Assembly: GCA_018902545.1 (NCBI GenBank)
Contig: JAHIQM010000018.1
Coordinates: 1 to 64,000, forward strand
Source of the DNA: Pseudomonadota bacterium
GTDB lineage: Bacteria > Desulfobacterota > Desulfovibrionia > Desulfovibrionales > Desulfomicrobiaceae
Length of the DNA stretch: 64,000 nucleotides
Direction: 5' to 3'
Position 1 is the stretch's first letter; each line of letters starts with the position of its first letter. A program made the translations under genes and the position numbers. The notes under the pieces were generated by a model that was not told where the DNA came from, ran no database searches, and saw only the letters and a list, made by a program, of their open reading frames with translations. Shown here in pieces: positions 55,136 to 64,000 of the stretch.

Positions 55136-55200
55136 CCGCGAGTCGTCCCAGCACGAGTCGCGGTCTGCCTGCCGCGTGAGGCCGTCCTCACGCGGCAGGC
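55136..55200. terminator. Two tandem hairpins between converging phoH2 and PHP-GT genes
   Basis: First, an 11-bp stem with one mismatch at 55136-55146 with 55153-55163. Then a perfect 15-bp stem at 55167-55181 with 55186-55200, loop CCGT. The second right arm overlaps the end of the PHP-glycosyltransferase gene. There is no strong T-run, so they may be transcript-end stabilisers. Confidence 0.6.
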
Positions 55201-57599
55201 GTCGTTACGTTCTTGTAAAGCTCCCAGGTGGCCAGAAACGCGGAGCCGAAACTGCGCTCTTCGGCGAATATGCGGGCGTCTTCTCCCATGCGTTTTACGC
55301 GATCCGGATCGGTGCAGAGTTCAAGCATCGCCCGCGCCAGATCGTCGGCGTCGCGCCCACGGACGACAAGACCCGTCCTGCCGGGATGTATGTTCTCCAT
55401 GGGTCCGCCCCTGTCGCTGACGATGACCGGGAGACCGGACGCCTGGGCTTCAAGCACCACGTTGCCGAAGGTGTCCGTCGTCGACGGAAAGACGAAAAGA
55501 TCCGCCGAGGCGTATGCTTCGGCCAGCGCCTCGCCATGCAGGACTCCGGTGAAAAGCGCAGGCAGCCCGGCGAGTTCCCGCTCCATCTCCTCCCGGTACG
55601 GTCCGTCCCCGACAAGGATGAGCTGCACGCCGCGTCCGTCCATCCTGGCAAGCGCCTTTTTGTAGGCAGCGGTCAGGACGTTCAGGTCCTTCTCCCTGGA
55701 AATTCGTCCGACATAGATCAGCTTGAACGAATCCATGCCTGGCCAGCTTTTGTAAAAACCGTTGCGTTTGGCCGGGTCAAAGCGTCCGATGTCAACTCCG
55801 CGCGGGTAGACCCGGATGGCCCCGCGTTCGACACCGAAGGACGCCAGTTCGTCGGCGATGGCCTGGGATGGCGCGTACACGACGTCCATCTGCTTGTAAT
55901 ACCAGGCCATATACTTGCGGGTCAGGTCTTCGAGGCCCGAGTCGCCGGTCAAGGATGCCACATACTGCGGGAAGGCCGTGTGGTACGTGCCATGGATGGG
56001 AATCTGCAGGATGCGGCTGATGGCCAGCGCGGCGAGGCCCACGGGCCCTGGCGTGGCGGCGAGGATGAGTTTCGCGTCCGCTTCCATGGTGTATTCCAGC
56101 ATGCGTAAAAAGGGTGGATAGGCGAGGGTCAGCTCCGGGTATTCAGGTATGGCAAAGGTGCCGATGGGGTCGAAGACTTTTAGTCCGGGGCCGCTTTCGC
56201 CCTGTCCGCAGGTGACCACCGTCATGCGTTTTCCGTGCGTCAGGGCCATCTCAAGCTGCTGGCGGATGGTCCAGGACACGCCGTTGACGTCTTCGAATGT
56301 GTCCGTGAAATGCAGGAGGGTAAGGGGCACCGGTCTGGCATGTCCGAAAGCCCTGGCGCATGTGCGACTGAACGATCTCTCGCGGGCAAAGAGTCCGAAG
56401 GAAACGAAATACGGGGCCAGGAGGGCATACAGGGAGCCGGCCGTTCCGATGGTGCTGAAGATGTCGAAGATGTTCGCGCCCAGCGCGCTGGTCAGCAGGC
56501 GGTCCAGAAAGGTGGCGATGAGTTTGTCCGAAGCCAGCCCGACGCAGCGGAACCATTCCCGGTCGAAGTCCGCTCCGGGTTTTCCTTTTGCGATGTCCAT
56601 GAACACTGGATCGGTCTCGATGATGCGGGTGACTTCTTTGAGGAGCAGTGCCCTTATTCCTTCGGCGTCGGCCAGGCGCAGATAGGTGCTGCTCCTTCGC
56701 GTGCCGATGGCTGCGTGCAGGCGGGCCAGAATGCCGTCGCCGGGGGTATGGCTCGCGCCGAGCATGTGGTCGGCGAACTGCATGCACAGCATGCTCGAGT
56801 GCGTGCGTCTGGTCCTGGTTTGGTAGTACTGGTAGGCAATGGCGTAGAGGTTGCGCGCCAGTCCGTGCCCGGTGGCGGTTCGTCCAGTCGGCCTCGTCCG
56901 CCTTGCCTGCACCGCGCCGAGAAAATCACGCAGATTCTCCGCCCCGGCCAGGGTGTGCATGCTCGCGATGTTGAGGCCCGAGTGATCGTCGGATCCTCCG
57001 ATGAGTCCCTTTTCCCAGGCCGTGCCGCCCAGCGGTTCCAAACCGTGCCGGTCGGCCAGCATCTCCATGGTCACCCGATCCAAATCGGCCAGAATCGTTT
57101 CAAGAACCCGGTTCTGCATGCCGTCCCGGCAGCCGTTCAATTCGAAAATGTCAAAGAGAAGGAGCGCCTGCTCGAAGTGATCGACGCTCAGCTTGTCGTT
57201 GACCGCGAACAGGGGGTGGGCCAGGGCGTGCACGAGGCCCTCCCGGCGCAGGTAGCCACAGAGGTCGAAAACGTTTTCCCGCAGCCGCTGAATTTCTCCG
57301 TGTTGTCCCTCGGTGATGCCGTAGACCAGAACATGCAGCTTGCACCTATCCTCGGGGAAATAGGTGGTCACTTCTTCGCTTAAGAACACCCCCGGCAAGT
57401 GGGCGATGTTTAGTCCCCCCTCGATGACGTTGTGATCGGTGATGGTCACATAGTCCATGCCCGCCGCTGTTGCCCGTTCATAAATGCATACAGGTTCCGT
57501 GAAGCTCTCCGGGCAGCCCAGCTTCTGCAGAATCCATTGCGACGGTCTGCTGGAGAACTTGGAATGAACATGCATGTCCGCCTTTCGCTGTGGGATCAT
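55188..57599 (-). CDS. PHP-domain / GT4 glycosyltransferase fusion protein
   Basis: The 803-residue protein starts at ATG 57599 with GAGGT 7 bp upstream. The N-terminus is a PHP-type metallohydrolase domain: DMHVHSKFSSRPS, TITDHNVIEGG, LVHALAHPLFAV and GGSDDHSGLN supply the metal ligands. A linker region (about 240-400) follows. The C-terminal half (about 430-800) is a GT-B family 4 glycosyltransferase: ATPGPVGLAALAISRILQIP, RVYPRGVDIGRFDP, LIYVGRISREKDLNVL, ADLFVFPSTTDTFGNVVLEA. It may glycosylate a lipid or other acceptor. It is divergent from the GAK-type operon and shares its regulatory gap. Confidence 0.88.
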   Translation of the reverse strand: MIPQRKADMHVHSKFSSRPSQWILQKLGCPESFTEPVCIYERATAAGMDYVTITDHNVIEGGLNIAHLPGVFLSEEVTTYFPEDRCKLHVLVYGITEGQHGEIQRLRENVFDLCGYLRREGLVHALAHPLFAVNDKLSVDHFEQALLLFDIFELNGCRDGMQNRVLETILADLDRVTMEMLADRHGLEPLGGTAWEKGLIGGSDDHSGLNIASMHTLAGAENLRDFLGAVQARRTRPTGRTATGHGLARNLYAIAYQYYQTRTRRTHSSMLCMQFADHMLGASHTPGDGILARLHAAIGTRRSSTYLRLADAEGIRALLLKEVTRIIETDPVFMDIAKGKPGADFDREWFRCVGLASDKLIATFLDRLLTSALGANIFDIFSTIGTAGSLYALLAPYFVSFGLFARERSFSRTCARAFGHARPVPLTLLHFTDTFEDVNGVSWTIRQQLEMALTHGKRMTVVTCGQGESGPGLKVFDPIGTFAIPEYPELTLAYPPFLRMLEYTMEADAKLILAATPGPVGLAALAISRILQIPIHGTYHTAFPQYVASLTGDSGLEDLTRKYMAWYYKQMDVVYAPSQAIADELASFGVERGAIRVYPRGVDIGRFDPAKRNGFYKSWPGMDSFKLIYVGRISREKDLNVLTAAYKKALARMDGRGVQLILVGDGPYREEMERELAGLPALFTGVLHGEALAEAYASADLFVFPSTTDTFGNVVLEAQASGLPVIVSDRGGPMENIHPGRTGLVVRGRDADDLARAMLELCTDPDRVKRMGEDARIFAEERSFGSAFLATWELYKNVTTPAA

Positions 57600-57710
57600 A
57601 ATGCATACCTCATAATGGTTTGCGCACATTATCCAGCATGGGCGTCAGTTCTGTTACGAGCATATGACGATTTGATAAATATTTTGGGCGCATGCTTCGC
57701 GCATTTTAGA

Positions 57711-57743
57711 CTGTCACACAACTGTTACGCAAATGTCACAGCG
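57711..57743 (+). promoter_or_regulatory. Candidate Pho box: three 11-bp direct repeats
   Basis: Three contiguous 11-bp units, starting CTGTCA, CTGTTA and ATGTCA (57711, 57722 and 57733). The PhoB consensus is CTGTCAT-like heptamers every 11 bp, so both sequence and phase fit. They end 78 bp before the ATG of the XXXCH gene and start 112 bp from the PHP-GT start. A TTGACT hexamer follows at 57750-57755, but I see no clear -10. Confidence 0.75.
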
Positions 57744-57821
57744 AAGGGATTGACTTTGCACCTGCGATCACAGACAAAATCGTTATTTATCCCCACATCT
57801 CATCATATCGAGGAACTACTC

Positions 57822-58355
57822 ATGTCCATGAAGCTCAAGCACAACTGGCAACTCTCCCGCAGCGAGGCTGCTGATTTGTTGCGAAAACTGGCGGAAACCT
57901 TGGAAGAGGAGTCCGACGATCTGGGCGAATACGGGATCAGCCTGGCGGATCTGGTCAAGTTCAAGATCAAGGTCGATCTGGGACAGGACGATACCCTGGA
58001 GGTGAAGTTCACCGGGAAAGGCTCCAAGGTTTGCGAGGCCGATGACCCGTGCGGTTCCGGCGTCGTGAGTGAGAGCTACTCCAAACTCAAGAAGAGAATG
58101 CAGGTCTATTTCAAGGCCATTCGGGAAAGTGTGAATCGTGCGGAGATGCCCTCGCGTGAAATAGTCTCGGTCTTTCTTGCGGATTCCGATAGAATGCTGT
58201 CCTATCACGGCTACGGTGAAGAATTCTATCCTGCCTACGCCGAATTGTGCGACCGGCTGCGCGCCGCCTGCGACAGCGAGAACATGGCCGAGACGGCCGC
58301 TGTGGTCGAAGAATTGATCCAGTCCAAAAAATCCTGCCACGACCGGTACAAATAG
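57822..58355 (+). CDS. XXXCH-domain protein of a GAK-type system
   Basis: The 177-residue product starts at ATG 57822 with GAGGA 7 bp upstream. The frame open to 57432 is rejected because it would cross the Pho-box region. The N-terminal half resembles the amphi-Trp type of small domain (LKHNWQLSRSEAADLLRKL, then DLVKFKIKVDLG). The C-terminus ends SKKSCHDRYK, with Cys172-His173. From memory this fits the TIGRFAM 'XXXCH domain' associated with the GAK system; the function is unknown. A second pair of cysteines is in VCEADDPCGSG. Confidence 0.8.
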   Translation: MSMKLKHNWQLSRSEAADLLRKLAETLEEESDDLGEYGISLADLVKFKIKVDLGQDDTLEVKFTGKGSKVCEADDPCGSGVVSESYSKLKKRMQVYFKAIRESVNRAEMPSREIVSVFLADSDRMLSYHGYGEEFYPAYAELCDRLRAACDSENMAETAAVVEELIQSKKSCHDRYK

Positions 58356-58364
58356 GTTCTGCAC

Positions 58365-59504
58365 ATGCGCGCACCAGATCCCATGAATCCCGCTGCCTGG
58401 GACCCGGCCATTACCGAGCAGGACCTCGCCCTTTTCGAGCGTGTGGTCAGCACGGACCTGAGCGAGGAAATGCTGGCGGCCCTGGCCGCTCCGCAGCTGA
58501 CTCTTCCCGGCCAGACCAGCGTCATGGCCGTGCATTGGCACCCGGAGTTCGTGCCCATGCCGGTCATCAGACAGCGCATTGAAGCCATGTTTCCGAACAT
58601 GTCGGAGAACCTGATCATCCCGACCCAGCACAACGAGACTCTGGAGTATGGGGAGTTCAGTGGCGTGGAAGTGGACTGCTATTCCCACGGTTTCAACCAG
58701 AAAGTGCAGCTGCTGCTGCATTTCAAGACCGAAAGGCTGAAGCATGCCCACACCCTGCGCGCCATGCTTCGCCACACCCTGACCTACCGGGCGTCCCAGC
58801 TTTTTGATTTCATGTACACCATTACCGCCCCGCTGGAGGACCGCATCGAGCAAGCGGCGCGTGAAACCGGGGCGGATCTCGATCTGGTCGAATTCGTACG
58901 CCACCACGTGACCAAGGTGCAACGCATGGTGAAGGACAGGCATGCGAGCCTGCCTCAGGACGCCCTCAAGAACAAGCTGCTGCGCAACTATTTCGACGCC
59001 CTGCGGCCCCTGTACGACGGCGAACTCATCGACCGCATCCAGACCTATCTTTCGGCGGTCAAGGCCATCGTCAAGACGCATTTTTCCCTGCGTTATTTTT
59101 ACCGCACCTCCGAGGTCATCGAGGAGGCGCGGGCGCTTGGCGGAGGGATCATCATCCCCCATCCCGAGCAGTTCTGGCCCATCCTGCTGGCCGACTACGA
59201 CGTGGACGGGTACGAAGTCTGGAACCCGCAGTCACAGCGCTACACGGATTTTTTGATCGCGGCCGTGGGCCGGGCCAATGCTTGCGCAGGTCCATCCACG
59301 CGACGCAAACTGGTTTTTATGGGCGACGACACGCACATGGGCGAAAAGGTCAAGGACTTGACCCAGCAGAACCTGGAGAAAGCGAACCGCGAGATCGGCA
59401 GCCAACCCGCCTGGGATGACCTCGAGATCTCCAAGCGGCTCATCCTCTCGGGCATGAGCCGGGAAATCGTCATCCGTGAATACCGCGAACGCCTGCTGGG
59501 CTGA
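58365..59504 (+). CDS. PHP-superfamily-like protein in the GAK-type operon
   Basis: The 379-residue product has several histidine/acid motifs resembling a PHP metallohydrolase: AVHWHPEFVPMP, IIPTQHNETLEYG, GGGIIIPHPEQFWPIL and FMGDDTHMGEKVKDL. These could make a metal centre. The sequence is far from the standard PHP consensus, so a hydrolytic role is inferred. It starts 9 bp after the XXXCH gene, with only a weak AGG upstream. A related PHP domain occurs in the divergent glycosyltransferase. Confidence 0.7.
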   Translation: MRAPDPMNPAAWDPAITEQDLALFERVVSTDLSEEMLAALAAPQLTLPGQTSVMAVHWHPEFVPMPVIRQRIEAMFPNMSENLIIPTQHNETLEYGEFSGVEVDCYSHGFNQKVQLLLHFKTERLKHAHTLRAMLRHTLTYRASQLFDFMYTITAPLEDRIEQAARETGADLDLVEFVRHHVTKVQRMVKDRHASLPQDALKNKLLRNYFDALRPLYDGELIDRIQTYLSAVKAIVKTHFSLRYFYRTSEVIEEARALGGGIIIPHPEQFWPILLADYDVDGYEVWNPQSQRYTDFLIAAVGRANACAGPSTRRKLVFMGDDTHMGEKVKDLTQQNLEKANREIGSQPAWDDLEISKRLILSGMSREIVIREYRERLLG

Positions 59505-59519
59505 AAACGAGGAAACACA

Positions 59520-59789
59520 ATGTCTCAAGACGGCAAATTTGAATTCGAGTCCGTGCAGGACTGCCTGACCATCCAGAAGTATCTGGAGGCCCTGCAGGAA
59601 GGCTTTTTACAGGGACGGATCGTGCTCAATTCGGACGGGTCCGAAATCTGTCTGAATCCGGGCGGTTTCATGAAGTTTGAAGTGTCGGTGAAGAAGAAGG
59701 GCGCGGAAAACAAGCTGGTCATCAAGGTCAGCTGGAAAGACAAACGCGACGAGCCGCCTGCGACGGGCGAAATCTCCATTACCTCCTAG
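59520..59789 (+). CDS. amphi-Trp domain protein
   Basis: The 89-residue product starts at ATG 59520 with GAGGA upstream. It has the pattern of the small amphi-Trp domain: CLTIQKYLEALQEGFLQGR, then FMKFEVSVKKK, ending in KLVIKVSWKDK with the conserved Trp. The XXXCH protein upstream has a similar core. The family is often seen with GAK genes as I recall; its role is unknown. Confidence 0.78.
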   Translation: MSQDGKFEFESVQDCLTIQKYLEALQEGFLQGRIVLNSDGSEICLNPGGFMKFEVSVKKKGAENKLVIKVSWKDKRDEPPATGEISITS

Positions 59790-59800
59790 GGACCTCCCAC

Positions 59801-61435
59801 ATGCTCAAAAGTATTGACGGGCTCGATGAGAATTTTCGGTTCCTGATCATGGAGGTGCAGAACCAGATCAAGGCCACCTACGAATTCGTGCTCGCACCGA
59901 CGCCGTCGACCTACGACAAGATCTTCAGCAAGGACGATTACATCGACAATCTGAAGAACGTCATCGAGAACAAGTGCTTCATGACGCTCAATCAGACCAA
60001 GCTGAACCCGGAACAGATGAAGTATCTGCGCGCCGTACATGTCATCACCATCAACCTCGAACGCATCGGCGACTATTGTGTGAACATCGCCAAGCAAATG
60101 GGCTACCTGACCACTCCCAGGTTTCTGGAAAATTTCGACTACAAGGACAGCTTCCTGAAGATTCACGCGACAATCAACGAAATCCTTCCGGTGCTGCAAA
60201 AAGCCAACCTCTCCGGCGCACTGTCCATCTGTCGCATGGAGGACGAGCTGGACGGCATGTACAAGGAGAATTTTGACAAGATCATGATCCACCTGCGCAT
60301 CGGGCGCAACGTGGAGGATCACATCACCTCGCTCTTCATCATCCGCTACCTGGAGCGCATCGGCGACAGCCTGCTCAACATCGGCGAGGCGCTGCTTTTT
60401 GTCATCATCGGTGAGCGCATCAAGATTCAGCAATTCCAGGCCCTGCAACGTAACCTGTCCAAGTCAGGATTGCAGGGTGATGTTACGGATGTGGATTTTC
60501 TGGGGATCTGGGGGTCACGCTCCGGTTGCCGCATCGCCCGGGTGGAGGAGAAGTCTCCCCAGGCCCGGAATTCCATTTTCAAGGAAGGCAACCTGCGCAA
60601 GATCAGGCAGGAGAAAATCAACCTGGAATGCTGGAACGAGATTTTTCCCGGGCTGGTACCAAAAGTCTTCAGTTATCAGGAGGAGGGGGACAACGCCTCG
60701 CTGCTGACCGAATTCTTGTCCGGCTGTACTCTGGACGAGGCCATTTTCAATGCCGACGGCGAGATCCTGGAGAACGCCCTGTTCATTTTCGAGCAGACCG
60801 TGCAGCACATCTGGGAACAGACCTTGTCGCGGCACGATATGCCCACGAACATGATGCGCCAGGTCGGGGACCGCATGTCCTCCATCCTGCAGGTCCACCC
60901 CGAATTCATGCGTCCGGCCATGGGCATGGGTTCCGTGACTATCCCGTCCCTTGGCGAGCTGATCAAGCAGTGCATGGACATCGAGGCGAGGTATCCGGCA
61001 CCTTTTTCCGTGTTCATCCACGGCGACTTCAATATCAACAACATCATCTACAGCCATCAGGAACAGAAGGTCTACTTCATCGATCTGCACCGCTCGCAGC
61101 ATGCCGACTACGTCCAGGATGTCTCGGTCTTTCTGGTCTCAAATTTCCGTCTTCCGGTCCTTGAGCAGGAAGCGCGGGAGCGCATCACCAGGACCATCAT
61201 GAGCTTCTACGCCTTTGCCAAAGCCTTTGCGGTAGAGAACAGGGACGAGAGTTTCGACATCCGCCTGGGGCTCGGCGTGGCCAGGTCGCTCTATACCTCG
61301 ACCCGTTTCGAACTCAACCGCAGCTTTGCCCAGTCCATGTACAATCGCAGTCTTTTTCTGATGGAAAGACTTGCGGAGCAAAGTCCGCAAGATCTGACAA
61401 ATTTTACTTTTCCCTTGGAAATATTCAACTATTAG
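59801..61435 (+). CDS. PhoU-domain / aminoglycoside-phosphotransferase-like fusion protein
   Basis: The 544-residue product has an N-terminal PhoU-like helical domain (about 1-210, two repeats; RIGDYCVNIAKQM and LERIGDSLLNIGEALL are typical). The C-terminal part is a protein-kinase-like phosphotransferase domain with the Brenner motif FIHGDFNINNIIY and a following metal-binding Asp in FIDLHRSQHADYV. PhoU normally signals phosphate status through PhoR and Pst. A fusion with a small-molecule kinase is unusual. It lies 11 bp after the amphi-Trp gene. Confidence 0.82.
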   Translation: MLKSIDGLDENFRFLIMEVQNQIKATYEFVLAPTPSTYDKIFSKDDYIDNLKNVIENKCFMTLNQTKLNPEQMKYLRAVHVITINLERIGDYCVNIAKQMGYLTTPRFLENFDYKDSFLKIHATINEILPVLQKANLSGALSICRMEDELDGMYKENFDKIMIHLRIGRNVEDHITSLFIIRYLERIGDSLLNIGEALLFVIIGERIKIQQFQALQRNLSKSGLQGDVTDVDFLGIWGSRSGCRIARVEEKSPQARNSIFKEGNLRKIRQEKINLECWNEIFPGLVPKVFSYQEEGDNASLLTEFLSGCTLDEAIFNADGEILENALFIFEQTVQHIWEQTLSRHDMPTNMMRQVGDRMSSILQVHPEFMRPAMGMGSVTIPSLGELIKQCMDIEARYPAPFSVFIHGDFNINNIIYSHQEQKVYFIDLHRSQHADYVQDVSVFLVSNFRLPVLEQEARERITRTIMSFYAFAKAFAVENRDESFDIRLGLGVARSLYTSTRFELNRSFAQSMYNRSLFLMERLAEQSPQDLTNFTFPLEIFNY

Positions 61436-61443
61436 GAAATTTT

Positions 61444-62316
61444 ATGAAGATAGGTGTGGTCGGCACGCGCGGCGGATGGTCTTCGGAACTGCTGGCCGAT
61501 ACCGTGGCTGCCAGGACCGGATTCCGGTTGCTGGTGGACATGGAACAGGTCTGCATGGATCTGGACAGCGGCCGGGTCTGGACGGAAGGGACTGACCTTG
61601 GGGGACTGGACGCACTTATCATCAAAAAGATCGGTGCGCGTTACTCCCCGGATCTTCTGGACAGGCTCGAAGTGCTGCGTTTTCTGGCGCAGCGCGGGCT
61701 GCCTATTTTTTCCTCGCCCATGTCCATCATGCGGGTCCTGGACCGCCTGAGCTGCACGGTGACCCTGCGCCTTGCTAACATACCCATGCCGCCCACGACC
61801 ATCACCGAGTCCGTGGACGAGGCCCTGGGCGCGGTGCAGCGTTATGGCTCGGCCGTGTTCAAGCCGCTGTTCACGTCCAAGGCCCGGGGCATGACCGTCA
61901 TTGATCACGGCTCCGGAGCACGTGCCTCCATCGAGGCTTTCCACGCCGAAAACCCCATCATGTACCTGCAGCAGAAGATCGAACTGCCGGGGCAGGATCT
62001 GGGCATCGTTTTTCTGGGCGGCAAGTACCTGACCACCTACGCCAGGTGCGGCACGGGGGCCTGGAACACGACCACCGAGTCGGGAGGCAAATACGCCCCG
62101 GCCGAACCTTCGCCGGAAGCCATAGGCATGGCCGAAAAGGCCCAGGCCCTTTTTGATCTCGATTTCACCTGCGTCGATGTGGTGGAATCGGCCACGGGCC
62201 CGGTTGTCTTCGAAGTGTCGGCCTTTGGTGGCTTCCGAGGCATCCAGGACGCCTGCGGCCTCGACGCGGCGGCCATGTATACCGATTACGTGATGGAGAA
62301 AATCCGTGTGCGCTAA
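61444..62316 (+). CDS. GAK-system ATP-grasp enzyme (RimK-like)
   Basis: The 290-residue product has an ATP-grasp fold: a small N-terminal domain (IGVVGTRGGWSSELLADTV), VLDRLSCTVTLRLANIPMPPT, the ATP-binding Lys in SAVFKPLFTSKARGM, and the C-terminal metal ligands in VFEVSAFGGFRGIQ. It likely forms an amide or peptide bond using ATP on an unknown acceptor. AGGAAA precedes the ATG. Its 3' end overlaps the HprK-like gene by 11 bp. Confidence 0.82.
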   Translation: MKIGVVGTRGGWSSELLADTVAARTGFRLLVDMEQVCMDLDSGRVWTEGTDLGGLDALIIKKIGARYSPDLLDRLEVLRFLAQRGLPIFSSPMSIMRVLDRLSCTVTLRLANIPMPPTTITESVDEALGAVQRYGSAVFKPLFTSKARGMTVIDHGSGARASIEAFHAENPIMYLQQKIELPGQDLGIVFLGGKYLTTYARCGTGAWNTTTESGGKYAPAEPSPEAIGMAEKAQALFDLDFTCVDVVESATGPVVFEVSAFGGFRGIQDACGLDAAAMYTDYVMEKIRVR

Positions 62317-63376
62317 CACCACCCTGACCGGACTCATAAACCTCTTGAGCGCCGGTGTCGCCACCCCGCATCAGGTCAGCCTGAGCATGGGCGACTGCCG
62401 TTTCATGGTCATGACGAATTCGGAAAAACTGGCCCGCGAACTCGATACCTACTTTGCGCCTTTTCTGAACTCACGCGAAGATGCGGACATTTTCATCACC
62501 GCGCTGCAGGCCGAGGTCCCGGATCTGGGCCTGTCCTTTGAGGTCAAGGAGCCGGACCCCGGCAAGACCAAGATCAAGGAGGAGTGGGTCGATGTCCCTG
62601 GCGGACGCGTCATTCGCAAGCGCTTGACGGGTATGCATTTTCTTTTCGGAAACGGCGACAATCTGGCTATGGGCGACTGCGAAGCCAACCCCAACCAGGT
62701 CGTCAATTTCATCAACAACCGCTTCATCGAGCGCAAGCTCAGTGATGGCTGTCTGCTGGCCCACGCTGCCGGTGTGGCCGTGTGCGAAACCGGCATGGCC
62801 ATGGCCGGGTTTTCGGGCATGGGCAAGTCCACCCTGGCCCTACATCTGGTCAGCAGGGGCGTGACCTTTGTCAGCAACGACCGCCTGATGGTCAGTCCGG
62901 GCAGCTCCGGTCCGGTCATGTTCGGCGTGGCCAAGCACCCGCGTATCAATCCCGGCACTGCGCTGCACAATCCTGATCTGACAAGCATAATCTCTCCCGA
63001 GGACACTGCGCGTTTTCAAAGCCTGTCCTCGGAGGAGCTCTGGAGCCTGGAGCATAAATACGACGCCCTCATCGATCAGCTCTTTGGCCCGGATCGCTTC
63101 ATTCTGCAGTGCCCCATGCGCTTTCTGATACTGCTCAATTGGCGGCGGGATGGGTCGGCCATGCGCATGGCCGAGATCGACATCCGGCAGCGGCACGACC
63201 TGCTGGCGGCCTTCATGAAGGACACCGGGCTCTTTTTCCAGTCCGAAATCGGCTACGCCCCCACCGCCGAGGATTACGCCGAAGCCCTTGCCGGATGCAG
63301 GGTTTTCGAGATCACCGGGGGCGTGGACTTCGACCAGGCTGCGGATGGCTGTCTGCGGCTGCTGGAAAACGCATGA
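62306..63376 (+). CDS. HprK-related kinase B (GTG start)
   Basis: The 356-residue product has a Walker A motif AGFSGMGKSTLALHLVSRG near residues 170-190. An HprK-like core follows, with FVSNDRLMVSP. Unlike HprK, no HPr-binding signature is obvious, so its substrate is another molecule or protein. The GTG start overlaps the ATP-grasp stop, with GGAG 7 bp upstream. Its end overlaps the following gene by 4 bp (ATGA). Confidence 0.82.
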   Translation: MCANTTLTGLINLLSAGVATPHQVSLSMGDCRFMVMTNSEKLARELDTYFAPFLNSREDADIFITALQAEVPDLGLSFEVKEPDPGKTKIKEEWVDVPGGRVIRKRLTGMHFLFGNGDNLAMGDCEANPNQVVNFINNRFIERKLSDGCLLAHAAGVAVCETGMAMAGFSGMGKSTLALHLVSRGVTFVSNDRLMVSPGSSGPVMFGVAKHPRINPGTALHNPDLTSIISPEDTARFQSLSSEELWSLEHKYDALIDQLFGPDRFILQCPMRFLILLNWRRDGSAMRMAEIDIRQRHDLLAAFMKDTGLFFQSEIGYAPTAEDYAEALAGCRVFEITGGVDFDQAADGCLRLLENA

Positions 63377-64000
63377 CGGCGATACGCATAACCCGGGAAG
63401 TCAGAGTTCCCGACCCGGTGCGCGTGGCCAGGGCGCAGCGCAGCCCCGACCTCGGGCCGCGTATTCTCTTTTTCACGGGTGGAACGGCCATAAAGGAAAC
63501 CAGTCAGGCCCTGGTTGGTTACACCCACAACTCCGTGCATCTGGTTACCCCTTTTGATTCCGGCGGCAGTTCGGCCGTACTGCGCCGTTATTTCGACATG
63601 CCCGCCGTAGGCGACCTGCGCAACAGGCTCATGGCCCTCGCCGATCGCACCCTGCATGGGTACCCTGAAATTTTTGAGCTCTTCGCCCACCGCCTGCCCC
63701 GGACTGCGAGCGCGGAGCAGCTGCAGAGCGAACTTGCCGCCCTGGTCGGGGGCAGTCATCCTCTCGTCACACGGGTTTCAGACCCCATGCGCAAGATCAT
63801 CCGCCATCACCTGCAACTTTTTGAGAAGTCCATCGGGCCGGATTTCGATCTGCGCGGCGCAAGCGTCGGCAACCTTATCCTGACCGCCGGCTACCTTGAA
63901 AACAGAAGGCACATCGATCCCATCGTCTACATCTATTCCAAACTGGTGCAGGTGCGCGGCGAAGTCCGCCTGCTCATCAACTCGAATCTGCAGCTGCGGG
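63373..64000 (+). CDS. CofD-related GAK-system protein, 3' end cut by window
   Basis: The frame from ATG 63373 is open through the end of the window (at least 209 residues). CofD-like features are ILFFTGGTAIKETSQALVG, VHLVTPFDSGGSSAVLRRYF and GASVGNLILTAGYLENRR. CofD transfers a phospholactyl-type group to the F420 precursor, but this branch is a divergent relative of unknown activity. It overlaps the HprK-like gene by 4 bp, so it is the next gene of the operon. Confidence 0.82.
   Translation, partial: MTAIRITREVRVPDPVRVARAQRSPDLGPRILFFTGGTAIKETSQALVGYTHNSVHLVTPFDSGGSSAVLRRYFDMPAVGDLRNRLMALADRTLHGYPEIFELFAHRLPRTASAEQLQSELAALVGGSHPLVTRVSDPMRKIIRHHLQLFEKSIGPDFDLRGASVGNLILTAGYLENRRHIDPIVYIYSKLVQVRGEVRLLINSNLQLR

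Follow-up and report, generated by a model that had tools for sequence, protein, structure and literature searches.

Organization of the GAK locus

We analysed a window of 64,000 nucleotides (positions 1 to 64,000 of contig JAHIQM010000018.1, assembly GCA_018902545.1) from a member of the Desulfomicrobiaceae, the right-hand end of which encodes the GAK system, a set of protein families (TIGR04354-TIGR04358) whose names state no function. All five families are found at this locus, adjacent and on the same strand, with scores above the curated NCBIfam cut-offs (300 bits for TIGR04356, 200 for TIGR04355, 340 for TIGR04357, 40 for TIGR04358, and 31 for TIGR04354). The features are listed below in window positions, with the numbering continued past the window end.

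57711..57739, strand not assigned: tandem Pho box, CTGTCAC ACAA CTGTTAC GCAA ATGTCAC
57822..58355, + strand: amphi-Trp and XXXCH fusion protein (TIGR04358 109 bits, TIGR04354 34.5 bits)
58365..59504, + strand: PHP-family metal-dependent phosphoesterase with an insert, predicted from a fold match and metal-ligand motifs
59520..59789, + strand: amphi-Trp protein 1 (TIGR04354 67.2 bits)
59801..61435, + strand: PhoU domain fused to an APH-type kinase (PF01895 89.6 bits, PF01636 31.3 bits)
61444..62316, + strand: GAK ATP-grasp, RimK/MptN-like (TIGR04356 460 bits)
62306..63376, + strand: HprK-related kinase B (TIGR04355 554 bits)
63373..64563, cut at 64000 by the window end, + strand: GAK CofD-like protein (TIGR04357 535 bits)
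64583-64894, past the window end, + strand: second amphi-Trp gene (TIGR04354 64 bits)
55188..57629, - strand: PHP and GT4 glycosyltransferase fusion, divergent, associated with the operon and outside it

The operon spans 57822-64563 on one strand, its last gene extending beyond the window end. The genes are tightly packed, with intergenic gaps of 8-15 nt and overlaps of 11 nt (ATP-grasp/HprK-B) and 4 nt (HprK-B/CofD), and a Shine-Dalgarno sequence, GAGG, lies at 57810 ahead of the first. They run in the order amphi-Trp/XXXCH fusion, PHP, amphi-Trp, PhoU-APH, ATP-grasp, HprK-B, CofD-like, and second amphi-Trp.

A preliminary description of this DNA had proposed a single operon of eight genes, including the PHP-glycosyltransferase, in a region starting at 57600. 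The genes it named are all present and belong to the families it gave, as judged from the NCBIfam scores, PF01895 and PF01636, and the predicted PHP structure, and the shared strand, short gaps, and overlaps agree with one operon. However, the divergent PHP-glycosyltransferase lies outside that operon, the true start is at about 57822, and the set runs further than described, with CofD continuing to 64563 and the second amphi-Trp gene following it. Nor is the locus divergent, as it had been called: because the scores exceed the GAK cut-offs by a wide margin, it is a canonical copy of the GAK system. A literature search on GAK, amphi-Trp, XXXCH, HprK_rel_B, and the TIGR numbers found nothing relevant and no published function, in agreement with the preliminary description of GAK as a named system without a known product. 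GAK as a named family set without a function was already known, and its link to phosphate is new.

A tandem Pho box upstream of the operon

The preliminary description missed the feature that tells the most about this locus, the Pho box at 57711-57739, which consists of three heptamers with an 11-bp period in the intergenic region between the divergent genes. In Desulfovibrio vulgaris, PhoB has (c/t)GT(n)AC, in direct repeat, as its site, and PhoU-type genes are among its targets (PMC3333781). As in the D. vulgaris Pho regulon (PhoB = DVU1083), a tandem TGTnAC-type direct repeat precedes the GAK operon here, and other boxes in this genome precede phosphate-transport and phoBR genes.

When the 3.7-Mb genome was scanned with the three-repeat pattern (TGTNAC N5)x3, with two mismatches allowed, the GAK-operon site was the best match and the sole one with 0 mismatches. 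The remaining sites include three registers that overlap one another immediately ahead of a Na/Pi-cotransporter-PhoU gene, two that lie 77-115 bp ahead of phoB, with phoR, pstB, and phoU following that gene, and one in the vicinity of an ArsC-like gene. As a control, the pattern was reversed, and it then had no matches across the genome. A simple Pho consensus with three mismatches gave 11 sites in the whole window against 14.8 expected, which is not above chance, and the site at 57711-57739 stands out because of its tandem arrangement and position, not because of the total number of sites.

The first two repeats are found at the same position in two other Desulfomicrobium loci. Among the 63 GAK loci with enough upstream DNA, Pho-box-like sites precede 18 operons at p ≤ 0.05 (3.2 expected), compared with 10 of 178 control promoters, taken from the same loci but belonging to other genes. 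At p ≤ 0.02, the counts are 12/63 and 6/178 (Fisher 2e-4), and these enrichment P values are optimistic because the score weights were chosen by the author of the analysis and several of the positives are close relatives. We consider it very probable that the GAK operon belongs to the phosphate regulon in this genome.

Phosphate genes and phosphatases in GAK neighbourhoods

The gene pstB flanks GAK in five loci, along with pstS, pstC/A, and phoU, where 0.18 would be expected from genome density (Poisson ~1e-6, a value that ignores relatedness, and the five loci are related). The pst-phoU genes of this genome lie ~22 kb from GAK. Two lone GAK-type CofD genes have similar surroundings, one placed after a PstB-type gene and phoU and before an MgtE-like gene (genome G161), the other with a Pit-type transporter ~1.7 kb away (genome G235), and a Pit-type transporter is also found upstream of GAK in locus L067. 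In the gammaproteobacterial locus L104, the flanks of GAK contain PPK1, a PstS-like gene, and genes for CHAD and Na/Pi-PhoU proteins, and the cluster itself includes histidine phosphatases, a SixA-NUDIX fusion, a NUDIX protein, and a calcineurin-like phosphoesterase. SixA-NUDIX and other phosphatases stand in for PHP in Alpha- and Gammaproteobacteria, and the two types are nearly complementary (47 with PHP only, 8 with the alternative only, 1 with both, and 3 with neither), a pattern that follows phylogeny.

PPK1 or PPK2 was detected in 0/21 GAK genomes of the phylum sample, compared with 41/297 genomes overall (hypergeometric 0.04 for the union of the two, uncorrected for relatedness). Because PPK1 alone is not significant and the union value is uncorrected, this exclusion is kept as a hint only; the absence of PPK in GAK genomes allows, but does not show, a role of the GAK product as a reserve.

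Distribution and partners of the GAK genes

The GAK ATP-grasp is encoded in more than 500 candidate stretches of reference genomes from sulfate reducers, marine Alpha- and Gammaproteobacteria, planctomycetes, and others. Scoring was done on 81 loci, namely 80 genome loci retrieved by ATP-grasp alone and the locus of the window itself, from sulfate reducers, Phaeobacter, Roseibium, Labrenzia, Gammaproteobacteria, Planctomycetes, Zixibacteria, and others. The partners found were PhoU-APH (76), HprK-B (73), amphi-Trp (70), CofD (58), PHP (56), and XXXCH (36), with contig ends accounting for part of the absences. Compared with the TIGRFAM-defined system, the PHP phosphoesterase and PhoU-APH are constant additional partners in Desulfobacterota, and the locus described here adds the Pho box.

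Homologues occurring mostly apart would have spoken against the preliminary description. Instead, among 297 Desulfobacterota genomes, ATP-grasp and HprK-B are each above cut-off in 20, with 19 in common (Fisher 9e-28). CofD and XXXCH, however, are also found without the other GAK genes: CofD is above cut-off in 24/297 genomes, 15 of them with ATP-grasp (15/20 ATP-grasp genomes), and XXXCH is present in ~30, many without the remaining GAK genes. These lone XXXCH genes outside GAK are single genes with differing neighbours, and no shared context was found for them.

Two genomes, G213 and G277 (loci L113 and L114), each have two partial GAK loci and two HprK-B genes. At L113:11090-13282 (genome G277), a gene that by eye resembles a phosphotransacetylase lies between HprK-B and CofD; pta-ack is a reported PhoB target in D. 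vulgaris (PMC3333781).

Conserved motifs of the GAK enzymes

Family models did not match the PHP-like protein, and a sequence search against solved structures gave no true match; its identity came from a fold search. The AlphaFold2 model (predicted local distance difference test, pLDDT, 91.9) matched the phosphoesterase 3o0f by VIA (Z 16.7, root-mean-square deviation (rmsd) 3.7, 248 residues), followed by RNase AM 9etk (Z 16.1) and the AMP-bound 2yb1 (Z 15.7), with unrelated entries below 5. The metal-ligand motifs (HxH, TxHN, HP, and DxH) are invariant in 51 sequences, the invariant columns being H57, H59, E61, H89, N90, H266, D321/D322, and H324. On this predicted structure, the protein is assigned as a PHP-family phosphoesterase.

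The preliminary description had pointed to several ATP-using enzymes and a group-transferase-like protein, and the active-site motifs are indeed conserved. PhoU-APH keeps the HGDxNxxN and IDxxR (later Asp) motifs. The GAK ATP-grasp is similar in sequence to RimK/MptN/LysX, its nearest solved structures being RimK alpha-L-glutamate ligases. The ExN metal pair is not kept: E257 is invariant, and the Asn is replaced by Ser in 81/82 sequences and by Thr in one. In 71 HprK-B sequences, the His before the P-loop, the Walker A motif GFSGMGKST, and ND(R) are conserved, the usual DD pair starting with Asn in place of Asp. No HPr gene was seen within the GAK operon, and the genome outside the operon was not searched for one. 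The CofD-like protein matches only YvcK-family structures.

The XXXCH and amphi-Trp proteins

The N-terminal half of the XXXCH fusion protein is an amphi-Trp domain (34.5 bits, above the TIGR04354 cut-off), and the XXXCH half is modelled as a four-helix bundle (AlphaFold2, pLDDT 88.7). The top 31 Foldseek matches of this model are all cytochrome c' (best E 0.0095), as is the best solved-structure match of the sequence profile (E 0.0028), in which the CH is aligned with the haem Cys-His. By VIA, the similarity to cytochrome c' has a Z of ~11 (rmsd 3.2-3.4 over 99 residues), a value common by chance for helical bundles. XXXCH is thus predicted to share the four-helix fold of cytochrome c', with its C-H where the latter has the haem Cys-His, but it does not have the first Cys of CXXCH, only the CH being kept, and no signal peptide was seen. 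The His is invariant, and the Cys is replaced by Ser (SH) in one relative, L046. Judging from these sequences, a covalent haem in the XXXCH domain is unlikely because the first Cys is missing, the second is replaced once, and no signal peptide was seen.

Both small proteins had been suggested as carriers or substrates, with XXXCH modified at its Cys-His end. A carrier role is supported for neither, since the Cys of this cytochrome c'-like bundle is not strictly required and since, across 105 amphi-Trp sequences, Trp alone is strongly conserved and no conserved attachment residue was found. The amphi-Trp tails differ in charge and length, some being Lys/Ala/Pro-rich and others acidic; a role as polyanion binders was dropped on account of this mixed composition. 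Lone amphi-Trp/XXXCH genes in loci L118 and L125 adjoin or lie near aldehyde:ferredoxin oxidoreductase-like genes.

Proposed function of GAK

The computed operon, enzyme families with their conserved motifs, Pho box, and phosphate-gene neighbourhoods can be joined into one proposal. Because of the Pho box, the PhoU domain in the operon, and the repeated co-location with phosphate-uptake genes and phosphatases, a role for GAK in phosphate homeostasis is likely; we give about an even chance to the fuller statement that GAK is a PhoB-controlled pathway making and breaking a phosphorylated metabolite. When phosphate is scarce, PhoB, whose binding in vivo we infer, would bind the tandem Pho box and so activate the operon, possibly along with the divergent PHP-glycosyltransferase. 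A phosphorylated small molecule would next be built and taken apart by the GAK enzymes, in steps whose order is conjectural. PhoU-APH may be a kinase whose PhoU half gates it according to phosphate status, HprK-B may add or remove a further phosphate, the ATP-grasp enzyme may join an acid group or phosphorylate, and the CofD/YvcK-like protein may handle an activated phosphometabolite. The PHP phosphoesterase would remove phosphate, as would the SixA-NUDIX, histidine-phosphatase, and calcineurin-like set in Alpha- and Gammaproteobacteria. A phosphorylated product, as suggested in the preliminary description, would fit the phosphate link. We somewhat favour a small molecule as the product over a modified protein. 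It might either store phosphate or report the phosphate status of the cell, although a specific reserve or messenger is at present rather unlikely.

Several observations weigh against this proposal. By the simple score, 45/63 relatives have no Pho-box-like site, and several of the positive loci are close relatives. What is known of YvcK, which the CofD-like protein resembles, is that it binds sugar-nucleotides, not that it catalyses a reaction. The ATP-grasp is ligase-like by sequence, and some steps may therefore be something other than phosphorylations.

Some bacteria have their polyphosphate genes under Pho control, so that Pho induction is compatible with storage. Granules of Desulfovibrio gigas were reported to be made of glucose pentakis(diphosphate), which our literature search did not confirm, and to our knowledge this compound has no known biosynthetic genes. 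Eukaryotes control phosphate genes via inositol pyrophosphates, using NUDIX hydrolases and an ATP-grasp kinase that carries a phosphatase domain (PMC9765450, PMC12678693). Alpha- and gammaproteobacterial GAK copies share with that system (PPIP5K/Asp1) an ATP-grasp, a histidine phosphatase, NUDIX, and phosphate transport, but the GAK ATP-grasp is RimK-like by sequence and no inositol kinase was found. The parallel is one of parts, not of descent, and is an analogy only. One speculation, with a small chance of being right, is that GAK makes an undescribed phosphate-rich metabolite, which would either parallel inositol pyrophosphate signalling in bacteria or store phosphate in the cytosol of sulfate reducers.

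Placing GAK in the phosphate response makes its function testable, since the growth condition and the regulator are known and only a few assays come into question. A product that proved to be a new reserve or messenger would give bacteria a further way to store or signal phosphate, in addition to polyphosphate and Pst-PhoU.

Alternative explanations

Proteins are the classical substrates of the HprK and RimK families, and one or two small amphi-Trp proteins go with almost every GAK copy. One could therefore imagine a protein-modification cascade in which the amphi-Trp and XXXCH proteins are phosphorylated by HprK-B and receive amino acids from the RimK-like enzyme; these proteins would be phosphate-responsive regulators, with the CofD/YvcK-like and PHP proteins as effectors. 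However, amphi-Trp has no conserved acceptor residue across 105 sequences and its tails are variable, and the two or three phosphatases of the alpha- and gammaproteobacterial loci suit metabolite turnover better, which leaves such a cascade unlikely.

Phosphate might instead be scavenged from nucleotides or RNA, the PHP, NUDIX, and SixA-type enzymes stripping it off in starvation and the kinases recycling nucleosides. The predicted Pho control, the NUDIX/SixA partners, and the matches of the PHP model to RNase AM and AMP-bound 2yb1 (PHP RNase AM/pAp-phosphatase-like) are consistent with this, but three conserved ATP-consuming enzymes would be odd for phosphate release, and ATP-grasp and CofD are left unexplained. 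We regard scavenging as distinctly unlikely, and the same holds for a phosphorus-saving remodelling of the envelope, in which GAK, with the divergent PHP-glycosyltransferase, would make a phosphate-free substitute lipid or polymer. Under phosphate limitation, glycolipids replace phospholipids in D. alaskensis (PMC5193443). The PHP-glycosyltransferase shares the Pho-box region and recurs near GAK in 11/81 loci, a radical SAM gene is found in 8/81, and phosphatidylserine decarboxylase (PSD)- and LGT-like genes lie near some. Nevertheless, the PHP-glycosyltransferase is absent near most GAK copies, and no core GAK enzyme is lipid-specific.

A route resembling F420 biosynthesis (CofD, CofF/MptN), in which the CofD-like and CofF/MptN-like enzymes build a phosphodiester-linked, glutamylated cofactor, would draw on the CofD superfamily membership and the strong MptN model match of the ATP-grasp (143 bits), but it is very improbable, as the FO synthase CofH is above cut-off in 0/18 GAK genomes, the GAK CofD is nearer YvcK and matches only YvcK structures, and PhoU, PHP, and the Pho box are left unexplained. 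The weaker CofH matches in GAK genomes may, we presume, be menaquinone-synthesis paralogues.

Neighbouring genes

In addition to the genes discussed above as constituents of GAK, the surroundings of the locus hold several genes of note. The divergent PHP and GT4 fusion (55188-57629, minus strand) has PHP motifs that appear intact by eye, and its best named relative is a lipid glycosyltransferase family; it is a candidate one-protein lipid remodelling enzyme, which would take phosphate off and put sugar on under phosphate limitation. Beyond the window end (~65283-72836) lies a cassette of radical SAM, DedA-like, PSD-like, and LGT-like genes and a gene for an 800-aa protein. The radical SAM/DedA/PSD-like/LGT-like cassette recurs near GAK in loci L034 and L035 and, in part, in the Nitrospirae contig L088. 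Finally, an HU/IHF-like DNA-binding gene (64827-65237) overlaps the end of the second amphi-Trp gene, and such a gene is seen near GAK only in Desulfomicrobium-like loci.

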